Shown here one piece after another: positions 4,518 through 21,500 of a DNA stretch of 28,110 nt. Under the pieces are notes generated by a model. It made no database searches, had not been told where the DNA came from, and saw only the letters and a list, made by a program, of their open reading frames with translations. A program made the position numbers and the translations under genes. How positions within the stretch are numbered: the first letter of the stretch is position 1; each line of letters opens with the position of its first letter. The stretch is from a virus: the IMG/VR virus record IMGVR_UViG_3300040806_000201, positions 1 to 28,110 of that record; one strand, given 5' to 3'.

Positions 4518-5393
4518 TTACTCCTTTGGTTCGTCAATAGCCTTTAGTGCGGTTTCAGGAACATTGTCCTTGATCCACTGATAGATTTGCTGTTGGACAG
4601 ATGCTTCTCTTCTGAAACGCTTGCCCTCTTTCTTCAAATTAATATATGTGAAATCCTTCACAACAATATTGCCCGCTGAGGTCTTAATTGGCTTTCCGTC
4701 TTTGTCTGTCCATGGAATAGTATTTTCTCTATTGTTCAGAATTACGTTGACGGCACCATTAACACCTCTTGGCATCTTACCTTTAATAATATCTGACATT
4801 GTTGATGATGCACCCTCATGCGTCTTCAACAAAATGTCTCCTGGTACAACCCTACTACGATTAGCATTATTCTTCACCGCTGTATGATAGTCTGTAAGTA
4901 CCCATGTAATATGTATGTTCTCTGGTTTATAGCCTGCCGATCTAAGTTGTGGCAGAACACTTGTAATATCACTAATATCTTTTAGTGTAATATCAAAGAT
5001 GATATTTGGCAGTGTACCCTTTGATGCGGCGCCTGAGCGTACTAAGTCGTCCAACATTACTTTTAGTGTGTTCTCTTTAATACCGGCCTTCTTTACAAAC
5101 ATATGCAACTTAAAAACATCTTTAGGCTTACGCAAGTCTAGACCACGAATCTCTGGGTACTTTTTCTTCAATTCGTCAATTTTTTGAAATGCTTTCTTCC
5201 ACTCATCTACATCACGAATCTTAAACTTATCGCCTTCCATAAAGTTGCTGATAGCAAAGCCTTTGCCTGATCCAGCGCCGCCAGCTAAGAAAACAATCTG
5301 ACCATATCTCTTGCCCTGATTGTACATGATGAGTTTTTCATCTAGTTGCTGAAACAACTTCTGTGTAAAATATTCTTTTAGTCCTAGTATCAT
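4518..5393 (-). CDS. P-loop protein, zeta-toxin/kinase-like, in the baseplate operon
   Basis: 291 residues. A Walker A motif is at residues 38-45 (GGAGSGKG after a beta strand QIVFLA), followed by ISNFMEGDKFKIRDVDEWKK. This resembles zeta-toxin and small kinase P-loop proteins. Later segments LPNIIFDITLKD and YKPENIHITWVLTDYHTAV fit the second and third strands of such a fold, and NRSRVVPGDIL could hold lid arginines. The start overlaps the hub gene stop (ATGA), so the two are coupled. The substrate is unknown. Its position between gp27-like and gp5 is typical of marine T4-like phages in my recollection, but its virion role is not established. Confidence 0.65.
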   Translation of the reverse strand: MILGLKEYFTQKLFQQLDEKLIMYNQGKRYGQIVFLAGGAGSGKGFAISNFMEGDKFKIRDVDEWKKAFQKIDELKKKYPEIRGLDLRKPKDVFKLHMFVKKAGIKENTLKVMLDDLVRSGAASKGTLPNIIFDITLKDISDITSVLPQLRSAGYKPENIHITWVLTDYHTAVKNNANRSRVVPGDILLKTHEGASSTMSDIIKGKMPRGVNGAVNVILNNRENTIPWTDKDGKPIKTSAGNIVVKDFTYINLKKEGKRFRREASVQQQIYQWIKDNVPETALKAIDEPKE

Positions 5394-6727
5394 TTCTTAA
5401 ACCCTGTGTCTTTACAGCATTCAAACACTGTTACAAATGTTTCTTTATCGAATTTATGTCTCAACGAGGTAATCAAATGTTTACCTGTCATATATTTATC
5501 TTCTCTCTGGCCATCTTCTGTAGTACTAGCCACAGGTATACTCAAGAACACCACATCACCAACATTCAATTCAGAGTTGCCGTGTACTGCAACCTCAAGA
5601 GTTTTATTATAGAGATGATGATGATAGCCTCTCTTAAATGCTTTCATTCTTTCAGATGACTTAGGTCTTACAACCTCTTCATTGAACATAGGCAGTTGAT
5701 CATGCTGAAATCTTGTTGTAGTCAGGTCAATCACTGCATCTTTACTTGAGTTTCCTGGTATATGAAAATCTTGCAGTTTACTAAATTTATTATGCACACT
5801 AGCATAACTGTATGTTCTCTCAATAGACTTCTTTCGTAGAGGATCAATCAAAATACTTCTAGAGCCATACAATCCACTAACCATATTATCAAGCATGTCT
5901 GCATCCCTTAAAATCTCAAACGAAATAATCTTGAATGCATCTGTAAACGGTGCGTCTGCTTTTTTGCCACCTTCGTGATAATTAGATGGCTCATACTGAT
6001 ACGTTGCTTTGATATCTTGTTCAACTAGATTTGCAATATTTCTAAAGTTAAAACCATGGGTATCTTCATAAAATACAAAATAAGAACCAAGTTTATCGCT
6101 TGTCGCTTCGGTTCTAAAAAACTCAATAGCACTACTAACTGTCATTCTCGGTATAACAAACTTGTGCAGACCTTTTGTGGTATCAACCGTTATTTTTTTC
6201 TTTATTGCAAAGTTCACTTGGCTTATATCTGTGTAAGTCTTTTTGATCGCCTCACTCTGATAAAATTCTTTGATCAGGCTAGTCATCATTTTTTCGATTG
6301 TATTGCCGTTATCGCCACCATAACTCCGTGAAATCTTTTTATCGACTGTAGCAAAGGTTTCTAATGATACTCCCTCAATGATAAATACTTCAATCTTTTC
6401 ATCAATTCGCTTTCTATTGTCGATGCTGTTTACAACAAACAAATGCTTTTTGATGTTATTCTCTTCTGATGGTGTTCTATATTGCAAAAGAATTACTTCT
6501 GAACCAGCCAAGCCACCAACTTCATTATTAACAGGCTTTATAGCATCAATCAAACCTGTAGCATCAGACATAACAATTTCGCATGTAAGATTCTTATCAT
6601 ACAAGTTTTGAAATATGCTTATCTCAAGCATAAGTTCTGTGATATCAAACATCTGCCCTGATCTTGTAATCAGAGTTAATTGTTTTAGTTCAATATCACC
6701 AGCGTTTCTGTAACCCTCATTGGCCAT
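5390..6727 (-). CDS. Baseplate hub protein, gp27-like
   Basis: 445 residues, soluble, with no signal peptide. The N-terminus (LKQLTLITRSGQMFDITELM, then EISIFQNLYDKNLTCEIVMSD) and later VHGNSELNVGDVVFLSIPV, ending in TSLRHKFDKETFVTVFEC, follow the pattern of gp27/gp44-type hub proteins that form the trimeric ring joining tail tube and gp5 spike. The C-terminal segment resembles the closing beta strands of these hubs. AGGA precedes the ATG at 6727. It sits between gp53 and the P-loop gene, upstream of gp5, consistent with a hub-spike pair. Assignment to gp27 rests on pattern and context, not on strong residue identity to T4. Confidence 0.65.
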   Translation of the reverse strand: MANEGYRNAGDIELKQLTLITRSGQMFDITELMLEISIFQNLYDKNLTCEIVMSDATGLIDAIKPVNNEVGGLAGSEVILLQYRTPSEENNIKKHLFVVNSIDNRKRIDEKIEVFIIEGVSLETFATVDKKISRSYGGDNGNTIEKMMTSLIKEFYQSEAIKKTYTDISQVNFAIKKKITVDTTKGLHKFVIPRMTVSSAIEFFRTEATSDKLGSYFVFYEDTHGFNFRNIANLVEQDIKATYQYEPSNYHEGGKKADAPFTDAFKIISFEILRDADMLDNMVSGLYGSRSILIDPLRKKSIERTYSYASVHNKFSKLQDFHIPGNSSKDAVIDLTTTRFQHDQLPMFNEEVVRPKSSERMKAFKRGYHHHLYNKTLEVAVHGNSELNVGDVVFLSIPVASTTEDGQREDKYMTGKHLITSLRHKFDKETFVTVFECCKDTGFKK

Positions 6728-6728
6728 A

Positions 6729-7301
6729 TTATGTATCCTGTAGTATTGTCTCTACTTCATCAATTGCTTGTGAGACATATCTAGGCTCTAGTAAGCGAAT
6801 TTGTTTTCGTTCTTCATTTCTTTTGACTTCAAAATCGTATGCACTTTCAATTCTTCTCACATTGGCAGCAAGTGAATTGTATGTGGTCAGATCAACAGCC
6901 AGTTCTACCTTTTCCAATCGTGTGCCAATATTGAGTACTTTAGCCTCTCTGATAATCTTGTAGTAATTCTTGACTGTAGATTGGGCGGATGACAGACTGC
7001 CGTATTTACCAATAATGAATCTTCTAAAGTCATTACCAAATAAAGGCCAATCAAAAAATGGATCAATGATATCATTATAGTGTAATACAATCCATGCATA
7101 ATTAGCATTGCCATAAAACTTCTCAGCGATTATGTCTGGTCTATCACCATCTTGTATACTATACTCATAAAAGATATCTGCACGATCTTGCAAAACATCC
7201 CTTACCTTAAATCTACGGAGAATGTTCGTTACTTGTGTCTTACTACCCGTGTTTCGTAAGTCGTGAAATGTATCTGGAAAATATGAAAAATATCCTGCCA
7301 T
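6729..7301 (-). CDS. 53: Baseplate wedge subunit gp53
   Basis: 190 residues, close to T4 gp53 (about 196). The family signature is clear: YFSYFPDTFHDLRN at the N-terminus, then the LysM-like core YEYSIQDGDRPDIIAEKFYG and NANYAWIVLHYNDIIDPFFD, then WPLFGNDFRRFI. gp53 clamps gp6-gp7-gp25 units during wedge assembly. The ATG at 7301 is preceded by AAGGAT. The downstream hub gene starts two bases before this gene ends on the complementary coordinate, so translation is probably coupled. Confidence 0.92.
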   Translation of the reverse strand: MAGYFSYFPDTFHDLRNTGSKTQVTNILRRFKVRDVLQDRADIFYEYSIQDGDRPDIIAEKFYGNANYAWIVLHYNDIIDPFFDWPLFGNDFRRFIIGKYGSLSSAQSTVKNYYKIIREAKVLNIGTRLEKVELAVDLTTYNSLAANVRRIESAYDFEVKRNEERKQIRLLEPRYVSQAIDEVETILQDT

Positions 7302-7323
7302 TAGAATGATCCTTCTGTGCTAC

Positions 7324-8424
7324 TCATATCTGTATATCCGCTTCATACTCAATCTCATCGAATCCATTTCTAGTAAGGATTCTTGTCTCTTGGAAAGACA
7401 TAGTAATATCAATAGAAACAGGAGCACCAGTTGTTTCATAAAAGGTTGGCACTCCTTCACCATTATAGTTGACAGATAGTCCTGTCATAACGGATGTCCC
7501 GATATCATATAAATAAGGCTTTATCTTGTCTGCAAATTCGATTGTAAATTCGTCAGGGTACTTAAATGCGAGTCCTGCTCTCTCTGTGCCAAATTCATAT
7601 TCTGGAAGCATGTACTTCTTCATTACATTGATAAGTAACTTCAGCCTATCACTTTCTACCTGATTTTTAGCAATGAATTTATATTGAAATTGGTGTGTTC
7701 TGAAATCTACACCTTGAAATACTACAGCCATATGTGGATTGATAGCAAGTCCTTCATTCTGAACAAAACCAGTAGCAACTCCTCCAAGACCTCCGGCTGC
7801 CAATGCACCACCAAGTAAGCCAGCCCCACCGATAGCACCCGTAACAGCGGCCCCGGCAGCACCAATAGCCGCTGCCTTTGTAACTGCATCACTTGTATCA
7901 TTCTTAAAGGCATTTTTTGCTGCCACAAAAGAATTTGAAATTGCCTCTCCAGCATCTCCTAAAGCGCCTTTTAGTTCTGTACCACCAATAGAGCCTTGAG
8001 ACATAGCACCTAAAACCCCTAGCGATTCGTTTGAATAGCCTGCGGCATATTCTACACCAAGATTCGATGGAACTGGTAGTACGATACTGTGAAAAATACG
8101 AGTTGTGCCTTCATTCTTTTGACTTGGTCTGCGTCTTTTGACAACATTATAAATCATGTAATGTTCATCATCTAAGTCCATAGGATAAATGATTGGATGA
8201 TTTATTTTACCACCCTGAGGCCTGTAGAGTTTTGCTAAAGGCCCTCTAGTGACGTTTCTGTTTACGACACGATTTTGAAGTTCTCTAAAATTTAAACTGC
8301 CTGAAATCCCGTTTGGGCCAGCAGATAAAGAGTACGCTCCAGTACCACCAGACGCATCTAGTGTGCCTGATACAGTAACTTGCTGTCCTCTAGTGTTTAT
8401 TGTTGGTTTCTTAAATATTGACAT
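7324..8424 (-). CDS. 48: Baseplate tail tube cap gp48
   Basis: 366 residues, matching T4 gp48 (364). The C-terminal part carries the expected pattern (VSIDITMSFQETRILTRN, similar to the gp48 end ITMREI...LNR) after YNGEGVPTFYETTG. A middle segment is strongly alanine/glycine-rich (AAIGAAGAAVTGAIGGAG). gp48 sits on the hub-wedge baseplate and starts tube polymerisation with gp54. The start at 8424 has only a weak GGAT site and lies 12 bases from the divergent gp4 start. Confidence 0.8.
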   Translation of the reverse strand: MSIFKKPTINTRGQQVTVSGTLDASGGTGAYSLSAGPNGISGSLNFRELQNRVVNRNVTRGPLAKLYRPQGGKINHPIIYPMDLDDEHYMIYNVVKRRRPSQKNEGTTRIFHSIVLPVPSNLGVEYAAGYSNESLGVLGAMSQGSIGGTELKGALGDAGEAISNSFVAAKNAFKNDTSDAVTKAAAIGAAGAAVTGAIGGAGLLGGALAAGGLGGVATGFVQNEGLAINPHMAVVFQGVDFRTHQFQYKFIAKNQVESDRLKLLINVMKKYMLPEYEFGTERAGLAFKYPDEFTIEFADKIKPYLYDIGTSVMTGLSVNYNGEGVPTFYETTGAPVSIDITMSFQETRILTRNGFDEIEYEADIQI

Positions 8425-15272: not shown

Positions 15273-15493
15273 ATGGGCAGTTTAGCAGTCTTAGGAAGAA
15301 AGTTAAGGTTCTGTGCTTCTGCCTCAATCTTTGATTTTAATACGGCACTAATCAACTTGGCTGCCACCTCTACTTCTACATCCTCTTGTTCACAGTACCA
15401 TACAACAGCATCCATATACGGTATACGTTTATCTATCGCTAGTTCTTCTATCATTTGAGAGAACTTAGCGGTTGTCATTACTTCAAGAGCCAT
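15269..15493 (-). CDS. 33: Late transcription coactivator gp33
   Basis: 74 residues from the ATG at 15493 ([18 protein letters not shown]), with AAGG nine bases upstream. The pattern [20 protein letters not shown] parallels T4 gp33 VEEFGMSYLEATTAFLEEN. gp33 links RNA polymerase with the sliding clamp and, with gp55, activates late promoters. The protein is shorter than T4 gp33 (112) at both ends. It explains how the TATAAATA boxes in this window could be used. Its start lies inside the end of guaC, and a dedicated TTGACA promoter lies 30 bases upstream, also within guaC. Confidence 0.82.
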
Positions 15494-16673
15494 TTTCAAA
15501 TACCTTGTTATGAGTGTTATTTACTTTAACAAAAGTTGTACACTTTGTCAAGTCCTTTATTTTCGATGCTCCGACATATGTACATGCCGATCTGATTCCT
15601 CCAAGAATATCTTGCACAGTATCAGCAACGCTTCCTCTGTAGGGAATAGTGACTTCTTTTCCCTCTGCGGCTCTATAGTCTTTGAGTCCACCAAAATGTT
15701 TTTCATTTGCAGTCTCCGATGACATTCCATAGAATTTTACAAAATATTTTTCTTCAAAGTGTGGTATGTAATATTTGTCATTTATTTTAGTATATTCACC
15801 ACTGGCATAATGTTTTGTTACTTCTTCACTACCACCTTCGTCATGTCCAGCAAGCATGCCGCCAAGCATTACAAAGTCAGCACCTGCCCCAAACGCCTTA
15901 GCAACATCTCCAGAATTGGTGCATCCGCCATCTGCAATAATATGGCCGCCAAGACCGTGAGCAGAGTCAGCACACTCAATAACTGCACTAAGTTGAGGAT
16001 AACCAACGCCGGTCTTGATACGAGTTGTACAGACGCTCCCAGGACCGATGCCAACTTTAACAATGTCTGCTCCATTTAGAATTAGTTCCTGTGTCATATC
16101 TGCCGTTACAACATTACCAGCAATGATTATAATGTCTGAATGATTTAAACGCAACTGATATATAAAGTTGCTGAATGCTTCTGTGTATCCATTTGCAACA
16201 TCTACGTTCAGAAACCTAACACCACCATCTGTTAGTTCTTGTACATCCCGAAACTTTTGATAGTCTGCATCAGTAGAGCCAATAGACATAGCAACATGAA
16301 ACTGTCTCTGACCAATTGCCATACCTTCTGGCAAATTATCAATATGCTTATCAAAGTATTCAACAAGTTCATTTACAGAATAAGTCTTTTTTAGACAAGT
16401 GAACATTTCTCGCAGTGCAAGAGCATCTGCCATTTCAAATGTACCAACACCGTCCATGTTAGCTGCCATGATTGGAATACCACGCCAATGCCTATATTGT
16501 TCTTGTACTACTGGATATCCGTCTGGTAGTACATCTGTTGCTACATAAGGTCTGTAGTTCCTGAATGTAAATCCACGTTTTAGATCAACTTCTTTTCTAC
16601 TACCAAGTGTACTACGTTTAGGCTTAATCAATACATCACTAAAGTCAAGTTTTATTTCATTCTCAATTTGCAT
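15483..16673 (-). CDS. guaC: GMP reductase (GuaC-type)
   Basis: 396 residues from the ATG at 16673 ([20 protein letters not shown]), preceded by AGGTGG. GMP reductase converts GMP to IMP with NADPH. The active-site loop [20 protein letters not shown] (Cys about 215), [32 protein letters not shown] and FYGMSSE match bacterial GuaC rather than IMP dehydrogenase, and there are no CBS domains. It is about 50 residues longer than E. coli GuaC (347), with insertions near residues 38-62 and before FYGMSSE. All catalytic motifs appear intact. It lies between sleB and gp33 and overlaps both, so it is integrated in the phage operon. A role in steering purine nucleotide pools during infection is inferred. 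Confidence 0.93.
15523..15551 (-). promoter_or_regulatory. Sigma70-type promoter for gp33-gp59
   Basis: TTGACA, 17 bases, TAAAGT on the minus strand. It lies inside the 3' end of guaC, about 30 bases before the gp33 start. Confidence 0.7.
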
Positions 16674-17160
16674 TTTCCCACCTATAGAAAATATGGTCTT
16701 CAATCTTTGCTGTACGAGTCTTAGTCTTTGCCCATGCAGGGCTTACATAATAAGCATGATAATGTGTAGCACCATCTGTAAAGTCAATCAAATCATCATA
16801 CTTGAGTATGAATGTAAACGCCATGCCCTTTATTTCATCGTATAAATCCTTATCAATCTCTGGTATTTCATCTGATTTACCATCACAGTACCAAGAGAAC
16901 TGGCATCTATTTTTGATAGGATACGTTACAAGTGGGTCCTTCCAACTACGTCTTGTTGGGCCCTGGTGTACTACTTCACAAATAGTATTAGGAAACCGTG
17001 CGTCATTTACACGATTCATCACTACAAAAGATGTTGCAATCTGTGCGGCACGACTTTGATTTCGTGCTTCCCAATACATATTATCTGCAAGACAAGTTGC
17101 TTCGTCCGCATACGCTGGAGTAGACAACAGAACGGCTAAAGCCATCAATACTTTTTTCAT
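16663..17160 (-). CDS. Secreted SleB-type cell wall hydrolase (putative endolysin)
   Basis: About 165 residues from the ATG at 17160. The N-terminus [18 protein letters not shown] is a signal peptide with cleavage before DEAT. The SleB/Hydrolase_2 signatures are complete: [20 protein letters not shown] with the catalytic Glu, [16 protein letters not shown] and [13 protein letters not shown]. It should cleave peptidoglycan in the periplasm after Sec export. Since gp5 lacks a lysozyme domain, this is the only cell-wall enzyme visible here and is probably the endolysin. An in-frame ATG at 17178 exists, but it lies upstream of the expected transcription start. Confidence 0.9.
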
Positions 17161-17166
17161 GCTCTT

Positions 17167-17195
17167 ACTATACATCAATATAGAGTAAATGTCAA
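17167..17195 (-). promoter_or_regulatory. Sigma70-type promoter for sleB (probably leaderless)
   Basis: TTGACA, 17 bases, TATAGT on the minus strand. The -10 box ends six bases before the sleB ATG, so the mRNA is expected to start at or next to AUG. The -35 box contains the TGA stop of the upstream gene. Confidence 0.75.
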
Positions 17196-17498: not shown

Positions 17499-17987
17499 CT
17501 ACAAAAGACCATTCTTGGCGGCGTAAGCAAACCATACAATCAAGACAACACCAGTAGAAAAGAATACAATACCAAAAAGAATACCAATAACTTCCATAAA
17601 TTTTCTTCTGCGTTCTGCCTGCTTGTAGATAGTCTCCTGACGTTCTTTTCTTATCTTACCTTCCATAGCAATCAATTCTTCCCAAGCACTCGCACCCATA
17701 GTATATTGAATATAAACTTTGAGTTGGGCCCTCTGGTCTTCCGCTTTCTTCTTGGCGGCAAACATTGCCATTGCTTCTTCTTCTATTGATCCAGCAAAGA
17801 ATAATCTCTTGAAGATGGGCGGGTTCTGGGCTTGCTTTTCTGCTTCTGAAATATCTGATATGGCGGACATCCATCGCCCGAGATCACTGGCCATAGACTC
17901 AATGTCTCTGCCGATTTCAAAACCTTTTTTGATTGTGTTGAATGCAGTAGTAGCGCCTGCAAGTGCGGTGAAAGGATCAATCATCAT
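17499..17987 (-). CDS. Conserved marine-phage membrane protein
   Basis: 162 residues. The N-terminal half is an amphipathic helical region (DPFTALAGATTAFNTIKKGF, then IGRDIESMASDLGRWMSAIS), followed by a charged helix rich in Ala/Glu/Lys (MAMFAAKKKAEDQRAQLK). A single strong membrane helix is near the C-terminus (about 134-155, GILFGIVFFSTGVVLIVWFA). Two adjacent ATGs exist (17987 and 17984); AGAGG is better spaced for the second. It follows a late promoter and precedes the sleB region. A holin or spanin-like lysis role is possible but unproven. Confidence 0.75.
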   Translation of the reverse strand: MMIDPFTALAGATTAFNTIKKGFEIGRDIESMASDLGRWMSAISDISEAEKQAQNPPIFKRLFFAGSIEEEAMAMFAAKKKAEDQRAQLKVYIQYTMGASAWEELIAMEGKIRKERQETIYKQAERRRKFMEVIGILFGIVFFSTGVVLIVWFAYAAKNGLL

Positions 17988-18049: not shown

Positions 18050-18057
18050 TATTTATA
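18050..18057 (-). promoter_or_regulatory. Late promoter TATAAATA
   Basis: A perfect T4-type late box on the minus strand in the 111-bp gap between genes, about 65 bases before the start at 17984/17987. Confidence 0.75.
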
Positions 18058-18098: not shown

Positions 18099-18725
18099 TT
18101 AGTTTGCTAATGGATTATCCAATGCTCTTTGCAACTTATTGCCCAGTCTCTTCTCTAGGTCTTCTATGTCTCTCTCTACCTTGTTTCTAAGGTCATCACT
18201 GTCTGTCTTGTTCTGTTGTGCTATACGATCCTTTGCTTGATCATAGTCATTCTGGAGAGCATCCCTTTTGTTTTCAAATCTTTCTTCTGCGTTTTGAATC
18301 ATTTGACGGACATCAGCCTCTACTTCTTTGATATCGTCTTCTACTTGATCCATTACTGCTTCTACTCTTTTGATATCATCTCTGATACCATTCTTCATAT
18401 CCTTTACATACTCTATCTGTTCGTCTGCACTCTCTTTGATATATTGTATTTCTTCTTTGAATAGAGCAATCTCTTTACTTACAAAAGACATATGTTCTTC
18501 TACTGTGTTTTGATGTTCTAGAAGGACTTTGAGTTGAGTATCAAGGCCTGATAGATCGGGTGCGACATAGTTTTGGATCTGTTCTTTCATGTCTTGATAG
18601 TCTTTCCAAAACTCAAATGCGGCGTATGCACCACCGCCTAATGTTGACAGTGCAGTAAGGACTAAGAATATCTTACCACCTTTGAATTTTACTCCAGCGA
18701 TTTCCATTTCTGTTTGTTCGGCCAT
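18099..18725 (-). CDS. Membrane-anchored long coiled-coil protein
   Basis: 208 residues. A membrane helix lies at about 17-37 (KIFLVLTALSTLGGGAYAAF); the rest is almost entirely a charged coiled coil (for example EAVMDQVEDDIKEVEADVRQ and DLRNKVERDIEDLEKRLGNK). The orientation is probably N-in, with the coil in the periplasm. The start overlaps the previous stop (TAATG), with AGGAGA upstream. It is the last gene of the secreted operon. The architecture is like an inner-membrane spanin or a tether spanning the periplasm; no outer-membrane lipoprotein partner with a clear lipobox is seen. Confidence 0.8.
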   Translation of the reverse strand: MAEQTEMEIAGVKFKGGKIFLVLTALSTLGGGAYAAFEFWKDYQDMKEQIQNYVAPDLSGLDTQLKVLLEHQNTVEEHMSFVSKEIALFKEEIQYIKESADEQIEYVKDMKNGIRDDIKRVEAVMDQVEDDIKEVEADVRQMIQNAEERFENKRDALQNDYDQAKDRIAQQNKTDSDDLRNKVERDIEDLEKRLGNKLQRALDNPLAN

Positions 18726-19156
18726 TACTCTGCTTCTCCTGCTAACTCTCTAAGTCTCTTGAGTTCTTCTTCTAGTTTCATCACTTCAAGTCTTTTCTTC
18801 TTGAGTTCTAGTTGGTATAGTGTGTTACAGTTGATTCGTTCTTTAGGCTTATCTAGTGGTATTGTAACCCTTGCATATACGCCAATATCTTTAGTAGATG
18901 AGCCCGCTGATGAGTCCTTGTCGCCCAGTAATCCTACATGATTGTCGATGATGCCTGTGACACCAAACTCAAAGTTTGTTGCACCACCAATAGCGTTAGA
19001 ACAATCGAGGTCGCCCGCACGAAACTTATCGTTGGCGAAATTACTATTAGCGTTTGGTAACTGTAGATTTAAGGAATTGGTTTCTGCGTGTGCAGATGAT
19101 GTTATGCATAGTAGTGCGACAGCAATCAAGAACTTCATACTATAGATTTTTTGCAT
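18725..19156 (-). CDS. Secreted protein with beta domain and C-terminal coiled coil
   Basis: 143 residues if started at 19156 (MQKIYSMKFLIAV); an ATG six codons later (MKFLIAVALLCITSSAHA) gives a clean signal peptide with cleavage at AHA before ETNS. The mature part has a beta-rich section (DLDCSNAIGGATNFEFGVTG, VYARVTIPLDKPKERINC) with two cysteines that could form a disulfide, then a helical end (LELKKKRLEVMKLEEELKRL). I see no lipobox. It directly follows the PapD-like gene (5 bases apart) and couples to the coiled-coil membrane gene. No named family is recognised; similar periplasmic proteins seem to recur in marine phages. Confidence 0.75.
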   Translation of the reverse strand: MQKIYSMKFLIAVALLCITSSAHAETNSLNLQLPNANSNFANDKFRAGDLDCSNAIGGATNFEFGVTGIIDNHVGLLGDKDSSAGSSTKDIGVYARVTIPLDKPKERINCNTLYQLELKKKRLEVMKLEEELKRLRELAGEAE

Positions 19157-19160
19157 TAGC

Positions 19161-19553
19161 CTACTCTCGTTTGAACTTGGAGCATATCATAGAAGTGATT
19201 GATGAAAGTGTCTTATCTTCATCTCTGAGTTTAGACCTAGAACATACATATACTGCCCTCTCTTTGTCTTTCGCTCTAATATAAACATCAAATTTAACAC
19301 GACCCAAGTATTCTAGTTTGAACACACTGTATGATGACACGAAAGGGATTGGTCTAAATTCATTGTCAAATACAGCGATCTCATAATACTCTACATCTTT
19401 TCTCTTATTGAATAGTTCTAGCGTTGTAACTAGAAGGCCACTCTGATAAGACTGCTCCAATACCGGATAAGTAGGCACCATTTCGTGGGCGTTTGCCTTA
19501 CTCATCCAGCATAGAAACAATAATGTAGATACTATTACTATATATCTGTTCAT
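19161..19553 (-). CDS. Secreted PapD-like (chaperone N-domain-like) protein
   Basis: About 130 residues from the ATG at 19553 (MNRYIVIVSTLLFLCWM, signal peptide to about KANAH). The mature sequence is predicted to be all beta: TTLELFNKRKDVEYYEIAVF, FRPIPFVSSYSVFKLEYLG, then RVKFDVYIRAKDKERAVYVC. Order and spacing resemble the N-terminal immunoglobulin-like domain of PapD/MSP-type proteins, which act as periplasmic pilus chaperones. The second domain of a true pilus chaperone is missing. It lies directly after a pilin-like gene. The chaperone idea is inference; the periplasmic beta-sandwich call is firmer. Confidence 0.62.
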   Translation of the reverse strand: MNRYIVIVSTLLFLCWMSKANAHEMVPTYPVLEQSYQSGLLVTTLELFNKRKDVEYYEIAVFDNEFRPIPFVSSYSVFKLEYLGRVKFDVYIRAKDKERAVYVCSRSKLRDEDKTLSSITSMICSKFKRE

Positions 19554-19558
19554 AATTC

Positions 19559-20059
19559 TTACTGTGCGACACACATGGCTGTGACTGATGCAGTGTATGT
19601 CCCGCCTGGGAATGCTTTGCTACCACCGTTTACTGCGCTTGATGTTGAAGTGAACCATGTTGAGCCAGTTGCTGTCAGATCATACTGTGTGGTCTGACCA
19701 AATGTAACTTTATTTGTTTCGTATGAACCCATGTTAGTTGAATCACTGACTGCGGATACTGATGTTGAGCCACTCCATGTCACTGTCTCTGAGAGTGATG
19801 GGCTTGTGTCGAATGATGTTGGTGTAGTAATCTGTGCATAGTAGGCATCAGCAAGTGTGACATCAAAACGAACAATAGGCTGAACACCACCGTCTACGGC
19901 CGCTGTTGTGAGGGTATATGAGTTAGGGTTTCCGTAAACACCTGGTGTATCAGTTGTAATTACACAGCGAGACTGAACACTGCCAGTGATGGGTACATTT
20001 TCTGCGTATGCACTAAATGCACATAGGCTCATTCCTGTAATGAGTAAGTATTTGAGCAT
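19559..20059 (-). CDS. Secreted pilin/fimbrial-like beta-sandwich protein
   Basis: 166 residues. MLKYLLITGMSLCAFSAYA is a signal peptide, cleaved before ENVP. The mature protein has a cysteine near its start (GSVQSRCVITTDTPGVYGN) and one just before the end (FPGGTYTASVTAMCVAQ), with Thr/Ser-rich beta sequence between. This is the general look of chaperone-usher pilins and spore-coat-U-like domains: an N-terminal C.I segment and a final GTYTA.VTA.C strand. AGGAGA precedes the ATG. It ends six bases before the start of the PapD-like gene. Family membership needs structure prediction. Confidence 0.68.
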   Translation of the reverse strand: MLKYLLITGMSLCAFSAYAENVPITGSVQSRCVITTDTPGVYGNPNSYTLTTAAVDGGVQPIVRFDVTLADAYYAQITTPTSFDTSPSLSETVTWSGSTSVSAVSDSTNMGSYETNKVTFGQTTQYDLTATGSTWFTSTSSAVNGGSKAFPGGTYTASVTAMCVAQ

Positions 20060-20070
20060 TAAGATTTCTC

Positions 20071-20982
20071 CTAGTTGTCGTATTGCATTTGCACCATTTG
20101 CTCATGCAGTAATTGTTGGGCTAATCCGTTTCTTAGGGCCTGTTTATTATCATTTATTATATTATCAACAAGTACAACATCTTCTTGATATGCACCGCCA
20201 TCTATCGTGGCATTCAAGTAACTATCATTCACCGCTATCTGAGTAGCATTATTCATTTGTTCTATTATCTGATTCTCAGCAAAATATGCCGCAGCCTCGC
20301 CAGCCGCCATCATTTGTTCTAATCTGTATTTACGCTTGGCTTCTTCTTCGGCCTCTTCTTCTTCTTGGTCGATATCTTCAAGCGTTTCTTCATTTTCATC
20401 TATGAGTGAGCGTTGTTCATTGTTGAGATTTGCATACTCATCCTCAGTAGCATCATATATTTCTATTGTCACAGTTATTGGAGGCACAGGCACTTTGTAT
20501 CCTGGGCACATAGGATCGAACTGTGGATTGTAGCACGGATCGACTTTGTATGAGTATATGACTGTAGCATCTTCTACAGTGCCATCACCTTCTACTTCTA
20601 TAGAGCCATTGCCCCATGCCTCTCTTGGTATATTAGCAAGACCAATAACTTTGCGAATCTCAATGCCACCCTGTACACCAGACCAATCGTCTGTTTCTCT
20701 AAATACATAACCAGAGCCATCTGCTTTCTGATTGCCAACATGAACTTTCATATCGGCATCAGTTTCTTTATTAGGCGTGTAACTATAAAATACACCATTA
20801 ATATCAAGGCCTGGAGGTGTAGGCAATATGTTATCCATTACCCACTGATGACCAGCAGAGGCAGCATTGCCCGTTGTACCGAAGTATGGAGTTAAATCCT
20901 CAGAGTAGGAGGAGGAAGCCCAACAAACCAAGCCCACCGAAAGTAGCACCCTTTTCAACGCTAATTCCTTCGTCTTTGCCAT
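20071..20982 (-). CDS. Large secreted protein, unknown function
   Basis: 303 residues. The start at 20982 has AAGGAAGAG upstream. The first 27 residues (basic KTKELALKR, then VLLSVGLVCWASSSYS) form a signal peptide. The mature part has an aromatic beta section (GVFYSYTPNKETDADMKVHV, GIEIRKVIGLANIPREAWGN), two cysteines (DPCYNPQFDPMCPGYKVPVP), then a very acidic stretch (EETLEDIDQEEEEAEEEAKR) and a helical tail (AAYFAENQIIEQMNNATQIA). The first 83 bases overlap the end of the upstream gene in another frame. No family is recognised. Confidence 0.78.
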   Translation of the reverse strand: MAKTKELALKRVLLSVGLVCWASSSYSEDLTPYFGTTGNAASAGHQWVMDNILPTPPGLDINGVFYSYTPNKETDADMKVHVGNQKADGSGYVFRETDDWSGVQGGIEIRKVIGLANIPREAWGNGSIEVEGDGTVEDATVIYSYKVDPCYNPQFDPMCPGYKVPVPPITVTIEIYDATEDEYANLNNEQRSLIDENEETLEDIDQEEEEAEEEAKRKYRLEQMMAAGEAAAYFAENQIIEQMNNATQIAVNDSYLNATIDGGAYQEDVVLVDNIINDNKQALRNGLAQQLLHEQMVQMQYDN

Positions 20983-21442
20983 TTAACTCTTCCTTATTTT
21001 TAAACTCATGCGATTCCCATCCAATCTTTGCTTCTTCACCAATCTTACCCTCATATGGGCATGGTGTGCCAGCCATCATCATAGCATCAAATGTTGCTTT
21101 GTCTTGACACATTACTGACACGGCGGCGACTTTCATGCCCATGTCGTATAGTGTTTTAGCCTTCTTTAGTCTTACGCAATTCTCTTCTGTAAATGTAGTA
21201 CCAGCAGAAATACCAAGGATCTGTGTTTGAACAGCACCAGCAACACCAACAGTACAAAGATCACTATTATTACCTCCACTAAACTGTGGCGAGATAGCAG
21301 ATGGTGGCGGTGACTTCACAGTTGTAGTCATGTCTCCTTTAGTAGTAACGGTACTATTAGAATCTGTAACGATTGTTTCGGCATATACAATATTCATACT
21401 AAAGATAGTAAAAGCCAATACAGTAACTAATTTTTTAATCAT
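20900..21442 (-). CDS. Secreted protein with C-terminal hydrophobic anchor
   Basis: 180 residues. The signal peptide MIKKLVTVLAFTIFSMNIVYA is cleaved before ETIV. The mature part starts Thr/Val-rich (TDSNSTVTTKGDMTTTVKSP) and has four cysteines (SDLCTVG, EENCVRLKKAK, VMCQDK, TPCPYEG) that may form two disulfides. The end FGGLGLLGFLLLL is hydrophobic with no charged tail, so it may insert in a membrane. It is the first gene of the secreted operon, 50 bases after a perfect late promoter. Unknown family. Confidence 0.78.
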   Translation of the reverse strand: MIKKLVTVLAFTIFSMNIVYAETIVTDSNSTVTTKGDMTTTVKSPPPSAISPQFSGGNNSDLCTVGVAGAVQTQILGISAGTTFTEENCVRLKKAKTLYDMGMKVAAVSVMCQDKATFDAMMMAGTPCPYEGKIGEEAKIGWESHEFKNKEELNGKDEGISVEKGATFGGLGLLGFLLLL

Positions 21443-21492
21443 AGTAATAATCTCTCTAAGTGATTGGGGTCACTCATATATATTATCTCTAG

Positions 21493-21500
21493 TATTTATA
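21493..21500 (-). promoter_or_regulatory. Late promoter TATAAATA for the secreted operon
   Basis: A perfect late box on the minus strand, intergenic, 50 bases before the first gene (start 21442). The six genes down to 18099 are nearly contiguous or overlapping, so this promoter can serve all of them. Confidence 0.85.

Follow-up and report, generated by a model that had tools for sequence, protein, structure and literature searches.

The window analysed here is an entire virus contig of 28,110 bases (IMG/VR record IMGVR_UViG_3300040806_000201) with the content of a T4-like marine phage, including baseplate-type genes, a single-stranded DNA-binding protein, PhoH and many copies of the late promoter octamer TATAAATA. 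Six consecutive genes, here called A to F, run along its minus strand from 21442 to 18099 and encode predicted envelope proteins; this block is the subject of our analysis. Its features are the following.

21493-21500, minus strand: late promoter octamer TATAAATA ahead of A, with comparative support
20900-21442, minus strand: gene A, 180 amino acids, exported, PHROG 20531
20071-20982, minus strand: gene B, 303 amino acids, exported
19559-20059, minus strand: gene C, 166 amino acids, exported beta-sandwich, pilin-like by a weak fold match
19161-19553, minus strand: gene D, 130 amino acids from an ATG start, exported, predicted single PapD-type N-domain, PHROG 25455
18725-19156, minus strand: gene E, 143 amino acids, exported, PHROG 37374
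18099-18725, minus strand: gene F, 208 amino acids, N-terminal membrane anchor and periplasmic coiled coil

An alternative upstream GTG start would lengthen D to 137 amino acids. A and B overlap by 83 nucleotides (20900-20982), and the remaining junctions range from -1 to +11 nucleotides. Relatives retain a long A/B overlap (median about 70 nucleotides, range 41-179); in the window, the same DNA encodes the hydrophobic tail of A and, in a different frame, the signal peptide of B. The octamer occurs 10 times in the window against 2.2 expected, a count reached in none of 100 shuffles. Among clade relatives, 42 of 93 A genes have the late motif no more than 120 nucleotides upstream, compared with 0 of 400 internal genes (B to F) and a background of 0.94% in random windows. 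Because the motif precedes A and never the internal genes, a single late transcript is supported, and the arrangement of six genes behind one late promoter, as proposed in an original prediction made from the letters alone, gains comparative support. Signal peptides were scored by a crude, simple rule, which was passed by 34/48 family members for A, 69/70 for B, 45/48 for C, 66/69 for D and 58/59 for E, and by 0/20 of the other window genes used as controls. F displayed a single N-terminal hydrophobic segment followed by a coiled coil, in agreement with the same prediction of five exported products and a sixth that is a membrane-anchored coiled coil.

Relatives in viral contigs numbered at least 599 for A and at least 109 for C. 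Linkage was counted over 119 non-redundant loci, after removal of duplicate contigs and only where a contig was long enough. Adjacency was found in 103/103 cases for A-B, 96/96 for C-D, 92/92 for D-E and 98/100 for B-C, with both genes present in the other two, and the linkage of A-E is far above chance. F was not always beside E (58/88), and the genes flanking the block varied among relatives. Two scans of bacterial genomes for C and D returned no relatives. None of the six genes could be given a named function from Pfam, NCBIfam or PHROGs, PDB profile searches with A, C, D and E yielded nothing useful, and public records list all block genes found as hypothetical.

The clearest structural result was obtained for D, which was modelled from 69 aligned relatives with a predicted local distance difference test score (pLDDT) of 91.1 and a predicted template modelling score (pTM) of 0.78. 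The top 15 Foldseek matches in the PDB were all PapD-family chaperones (DraB, SfaE and FaeE among them, E 1.7e-4 to 8.3e-4), and a second aligner, VIA, gave a Z of 10.7 with Caf1M (root-mean-square deviation 3.1 over 98 residues), 10.3 with DraB, 10.2 with FimC, 9.6 with PapD and 9.2 with CsuC. The match covers the chaperone N-domain through the G1 strand (model residues 22-128 against chain residues 3-116); the second, C-terminal chaperone domain is missing, as mature D has about 108 residues and the model forms one domain. The proposal of a single PapD N-domain is therefore borne out by structure prediction, although sequence matches in Pfam and the PDB were lacking: PF00345 matched 0/69 family members, no PDB profile matched, and a hhalign comparison of the D profile with nine K-12 chaperones gave an E of 0.0046 at probability 7.6. 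Other immunoglobulin-like folds (MSP, CsxA) scored almost as high (VIA Z 9-10), so that the fold of D is secure and its membership in the PapD family is not. D resembles PapD, FimC, Caf1M, DraB and CsuC in N-domain fold, in export and in having its gene beside that of a beta-sandwich partner, whereas chaperones of chaperone-usher systems have two domains and an usher and D is a phage-borne single domain. The usher family PF00577 was absent from 12 operon-carrying records of 69-328 kb (with a positive E. coli control), as was CsgG (PF03783); because these related contigs may be fragments or incomplete, the missing genes are not proof of absence, and a host-encoded usher for D is possible. D has two invariant cysteines, located in its last two strands. 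An invariant histidine stands right after the predicted signal cleavage site (AHEM/AHDM) in every member and recalls some copper proteins; there is no second conserved histidine, and D homologues from Vibrio phages, described below, lack the N-terminal one.

For C, the evidence was weaker. The model, built from 48 relatives, is a beta-sandwich (pLDDT 91.6), and its top Foldseek matches were CfaB, the PapG pilin domain, CS17, FimI and FimA, with a best E of 3.3e-3 and none below 1e-3. The best VIA Z (7.3) was at background, the viral structure library gave no match with an E below 1e-3, and PF00419 or PF05229 matched 0/48 members and neither of two Vibrio homologues. With the best E and Z at these levels, the model weakly suggests a pilin likeness, which we treat as a lead and not as an established result. 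C shares with FimA, CfaB and CsuA/B a secreted beta-sandwich of about 150 residues, a first-strand pattern (I-x-G-x-V-x3-C in C) and the top Foldseek ranks, and differs from them in its weak scores, its cysteines and the lack of a Pfam or profile match. The originally predicted fimbrial or spore coat U (SCPU) fold is weakly supported by this ranking; the typical fimbrial cysteine placement did not hold, as the sole two invariant cysteines, C32 and C163, lie in the first and last strands, whereas the disulfide of classical pilins joins strands A and B. The model also lacks a long donor-strand extension. A hhalign match between Vibrio C homologues and K-12 pilins (probability 80) was rejected because the alignment covered the signal peptides; once these were removed, the probability fell below 1.

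Direct tblastn searches with the window B, C and D against 50,697 cultured phage records found no match. A weak match of E pointed to Vibrio phage pVp-1, in which two genes matching C and D in size directly precede the E homologue. C is homologous to the Vibrio family phrog_25895 (hhalign probability 96.8, E 2e-10; 92.4 without signal peptides), D aligned with its Vibrio counterpart at probability 93.7 (60.8 without signal peptides), and PHROG 25455 (D) and PHROG 37374 (E) are common to the window and the Vibrio phage genes. C was present in 179 Vibrio phage records and D likewise in 179, and the two sets break down identically by host; T5-like Demerecviridae and Queuovirinae are among the carriers, as are several further genome-size classes. 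All eight Vibrio records read keep the order C-D-E, and wherever the cassette lies in the genome it follows a pair of large signal-less genes, X and Y. In T5-like Vibrio phages, a holin and an M15 endolysin come one or two genes beyond the end of the cassette; the Queuovirinae cassette is embedded in the head/tail block, and the 12-kb stretches read there showed no lysis gene. The Vibrio versions of D end in CAKLRLYWP, akin to the chaperone motif SRIKLFYRP. These comparisons, made at the sequence level, newly identify C-D-E as a mobile cassette with diverged homologues in several unrelated Vibrio phage lineages.

Five of the eight Vibrio records carry a small conserved lipoprotein gene overlapping the 3' end of E (5293-5496 in locus L335, 7104-7307 in L344, 6996-7208 in L341, 6637-6822 in L342 and 6625-6834 in L345); some annotations miss or misplace the correct start of this gene. 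The X-Y pair (312-5943 in L344, 2531-5890 in L341 and 1310-4946 in L359; PHROGs 22875 and 10818) also occurs without the cassette, adjoining the major capsid gene in other phages, and X and Y are therefore probably virion parts; X is annotated 'structural protein' in KF-1. These are probably virion fibre or head-decoration genes; Y was found in 257 records, and in unrelated phages the pair moves between the capsid region and the tail region. We also considered whether the large Y gene could encode an usher and rejected this, since its product has no signal peptide, is fibre-like and belongs to PHROG 10818. No virion proteomics of a Vibrio carrier phage was found in the literature searched; for Alteromonas phage R7M, an abundant virion protein in the head-tail module has been reported (PMC8265664).

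The other half of the block has a distribution of its own. A occurs without C-D-E in cultured pelagiphages (HTVC115P, HTVC023P, HTVC033P and Mosig) and in roseophages. After A, pelagiphages carry, in the position of B, a different exported protein with a beta domain and an acidic coil, and roseophages carry a different protein again; in both, the next product is F-like, sharing the topology of F and ending in an NPL-type C-terminus. Across 232 non-redundant loci, A was present in all groups, and the F family was present in 94 window-type loci and in 35 and 40 loci of two pelagiphage-type groups. Independent scattering of the genes is refuted for A-E within the clade, and across phage families the block is made of two sub-modules, A-B-F and C-D-E. 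As to the products, A contains a Ser/Thr-rich linker, a conserved four-cysteine domain (CTVG...C...MCQD...PCP) and a hydrophobic C-terminus; B has an N-terminal beta-rich domain, an acidic coiled-coil middle and a conserved C-terminal helix; E has two cysteines, short beta strands and a C-terminal coiled coil; and F ends in the motif DNPLA[N/D]. Many profile matches of F were set aside as chance matches of coiled coils, and an outer-membrane-efflux match of one E homologue, weak and not reproduced across the E family, was dropped. In Roseobacter phages CRP-810 and CRP-207, genes annotated as 'lysozyme' (7213-7635 in locus L337 and 3292-3873 in L338, respectively) encode a membrane anchor, a coil and an NPL end; because these products read as F-like, the annotation looks wrong.

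We tentatively favour a late change of the infected-cell surface, likely one that masks or alters a receptor, as the role of the block. In the periplasm, D would bind C as PapD-type domains hold pilins, contributing a strand or edge, and would serve as its dedicated partner in folding; with no usher to receive C, D probably remains part of the complex. E and a membrane-tethered protein (F in the window, the small lipoprotein in Vibrio phages) would hold C-D at the envelope, and a companion sub-module (A-B here, the fibre-like X-Y in Vibrio phages) would supply the surface-binding specificity. B as the specificity part is consistent with the exchange of its beta domain between phage groups that keep A and F. 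With its receptor masked, a dying cell or its debris would no longer be bound by rival phages or by the phage's own progeny. It is conceivable, and we put it forward with slightly more reserve, that, late in infection, a beta-sandwich complex is assembled on infected cells by a usherless pair of a single-domain chaperone and a pilin-like protein, with the cassette joining different surface-binding partners (A-B or X-Y). If true, very different phage lineages share an unrecognised late way to alter the host envelope and draw for it on folds known elsewhere from the assembly of bacterial fimbriae.

Exported receptor-blocking lipoproteins near receptor-binding genes are known from other phages, namely llp beside oad in T5 and cor beside the tail-fibre genes of phi80 and N15. 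The Vibrio cassette would be analogous to them in being exported, lying beside fibre-like genes and including a small lipoprotein; the block differs in its multi-protein make-up, late promoter and immunoglobulin-like folds, and in a window operon without a lipoprotein. Several points weigh against a surface change. The pairing of C with D is proposed from fold and linkage, and the pilin likeness of C is weak. Known exclusion proteins are usually made early, whereas this operon is late. The window operon itself encodes no lipoprotein (no lipobox was seen in its six products, and the lipoprotein occurs only in the Vibrio cassette). Finally, lysis genes often lie close by: counting SleB, lysozyme, M15 peptidase and three-transmembrane holin genes, with some clusters assigned by inspection, we found them within about 6 kb in 16/38 window-type loci and in 16/18 and 7/21 pelagiphage-type loci with enough context.

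This proximity bears directly on the main rival, a spanin-like lysis step, in which A-B-F would form a trans-envelope complex that disrupts the outer membrane once the endolysin has acted and C-D-E would be its outer-membrane part. We consider it unlikely overall, although F has the topology of an inner-membrane spanin (a periplasmic coiled coil anchored in the inner membrane) and the operon is late. An exported cell-wall hydrolase (Hydrolase_2/SleB, E 1.2e-18) that is probably the endolysin is also encoded at 16663-17178 on the minus strand, two genes away from the block. The position of the T5-like Vibrio cassette just before holin and M15 endolysin points the same way, and the overlapping small lipoprotein gene recalls the arrangement of outer-membrane spanin genes such as that of the Rz/Rz1 pair. 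Against these stand the Queuovirinae cassette inside the head/tail block, the incomplete E-F adjacency (58/88), the lack of a lipobox in all six window products and the presence of extra exported globular proteins, a set of six far exceeding any known spanin; to our knowledge, the PapD-type fold has no lysis role. Because the cassette follows X-Y wherever that pair lies and is not always near lysis genes, the surface change is favoured over spanin-like lysis.

A surface appendage appears improbable. Here C would polymerise as a thin fibre on the infected cell, chaperoned by D and leaving through E or a host channel; with similarly low likelihood, such a fibre would serve in aggregation or in sibling capture, roles that have been proposed for the curli of pelagiphages. 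The leading rank of pilins for C, the chaperone-type N-domain of D and the phage-borne curli precedent (PMC7029224, PMC9599517) speak for it. A true appendage is nevertheless less likely because no usher or CsgG was found in the 12 possibly fragmentary records, and further because D lacks the second chaperone domain, the cysteines of C join first and last strands in a model with no long donor-strand extension, and its comparison with K-12 pilins was not significant. The curli, or type VIII secretion, cluster of pelagiphages is likewise an exported multi-gene envelope cluster, and its function is unsettled between lysis timing and aggregation (PMC7029224, PMC9599517, PMC9004378). It shares with the block its occurrence in marine phages, a conserved order and spread between phage families, and consists of different proteins. 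It is the nearest precedent found: the open literature searched contained no description of the block or of its function, in keeping with the suggestion that this could be an undescribed system. Least probable are virion-associated or maturation proteins, with C, D and E decorating or processing phage fibres in the periplasm or after lysis, since signal peptides target the periplasm (0/20 other window genes have them) and virions assemble in the cytoplasm, despite the strict neighbourhood with fibre-like X-Y in Vibrio phages and the commonness of immunoglobulin-like decoration domains on phages, one of them in PMC13320782. The 179 Vibrio phage records with homologous cassettes come from cultured phages, some of them on laboratory hosts.

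Two further genes on the minus strand lie near the block. At 17499-17987, a tail-anchored protein (PHROG 32327) is encoded behind its own TATAAATA octamer at 18050-18057; in Roseobacter phages CRP-1 to CRP-13, homologues of this protein are encoded next to terminase genes. At 15483-16703, the window encodes a GMP (guanosine monophosphate) reductase (NCBIfam PRK05096, 494 bits against a cut-off of 397), an unusual purine-metabolism gene for a T4-like phage.

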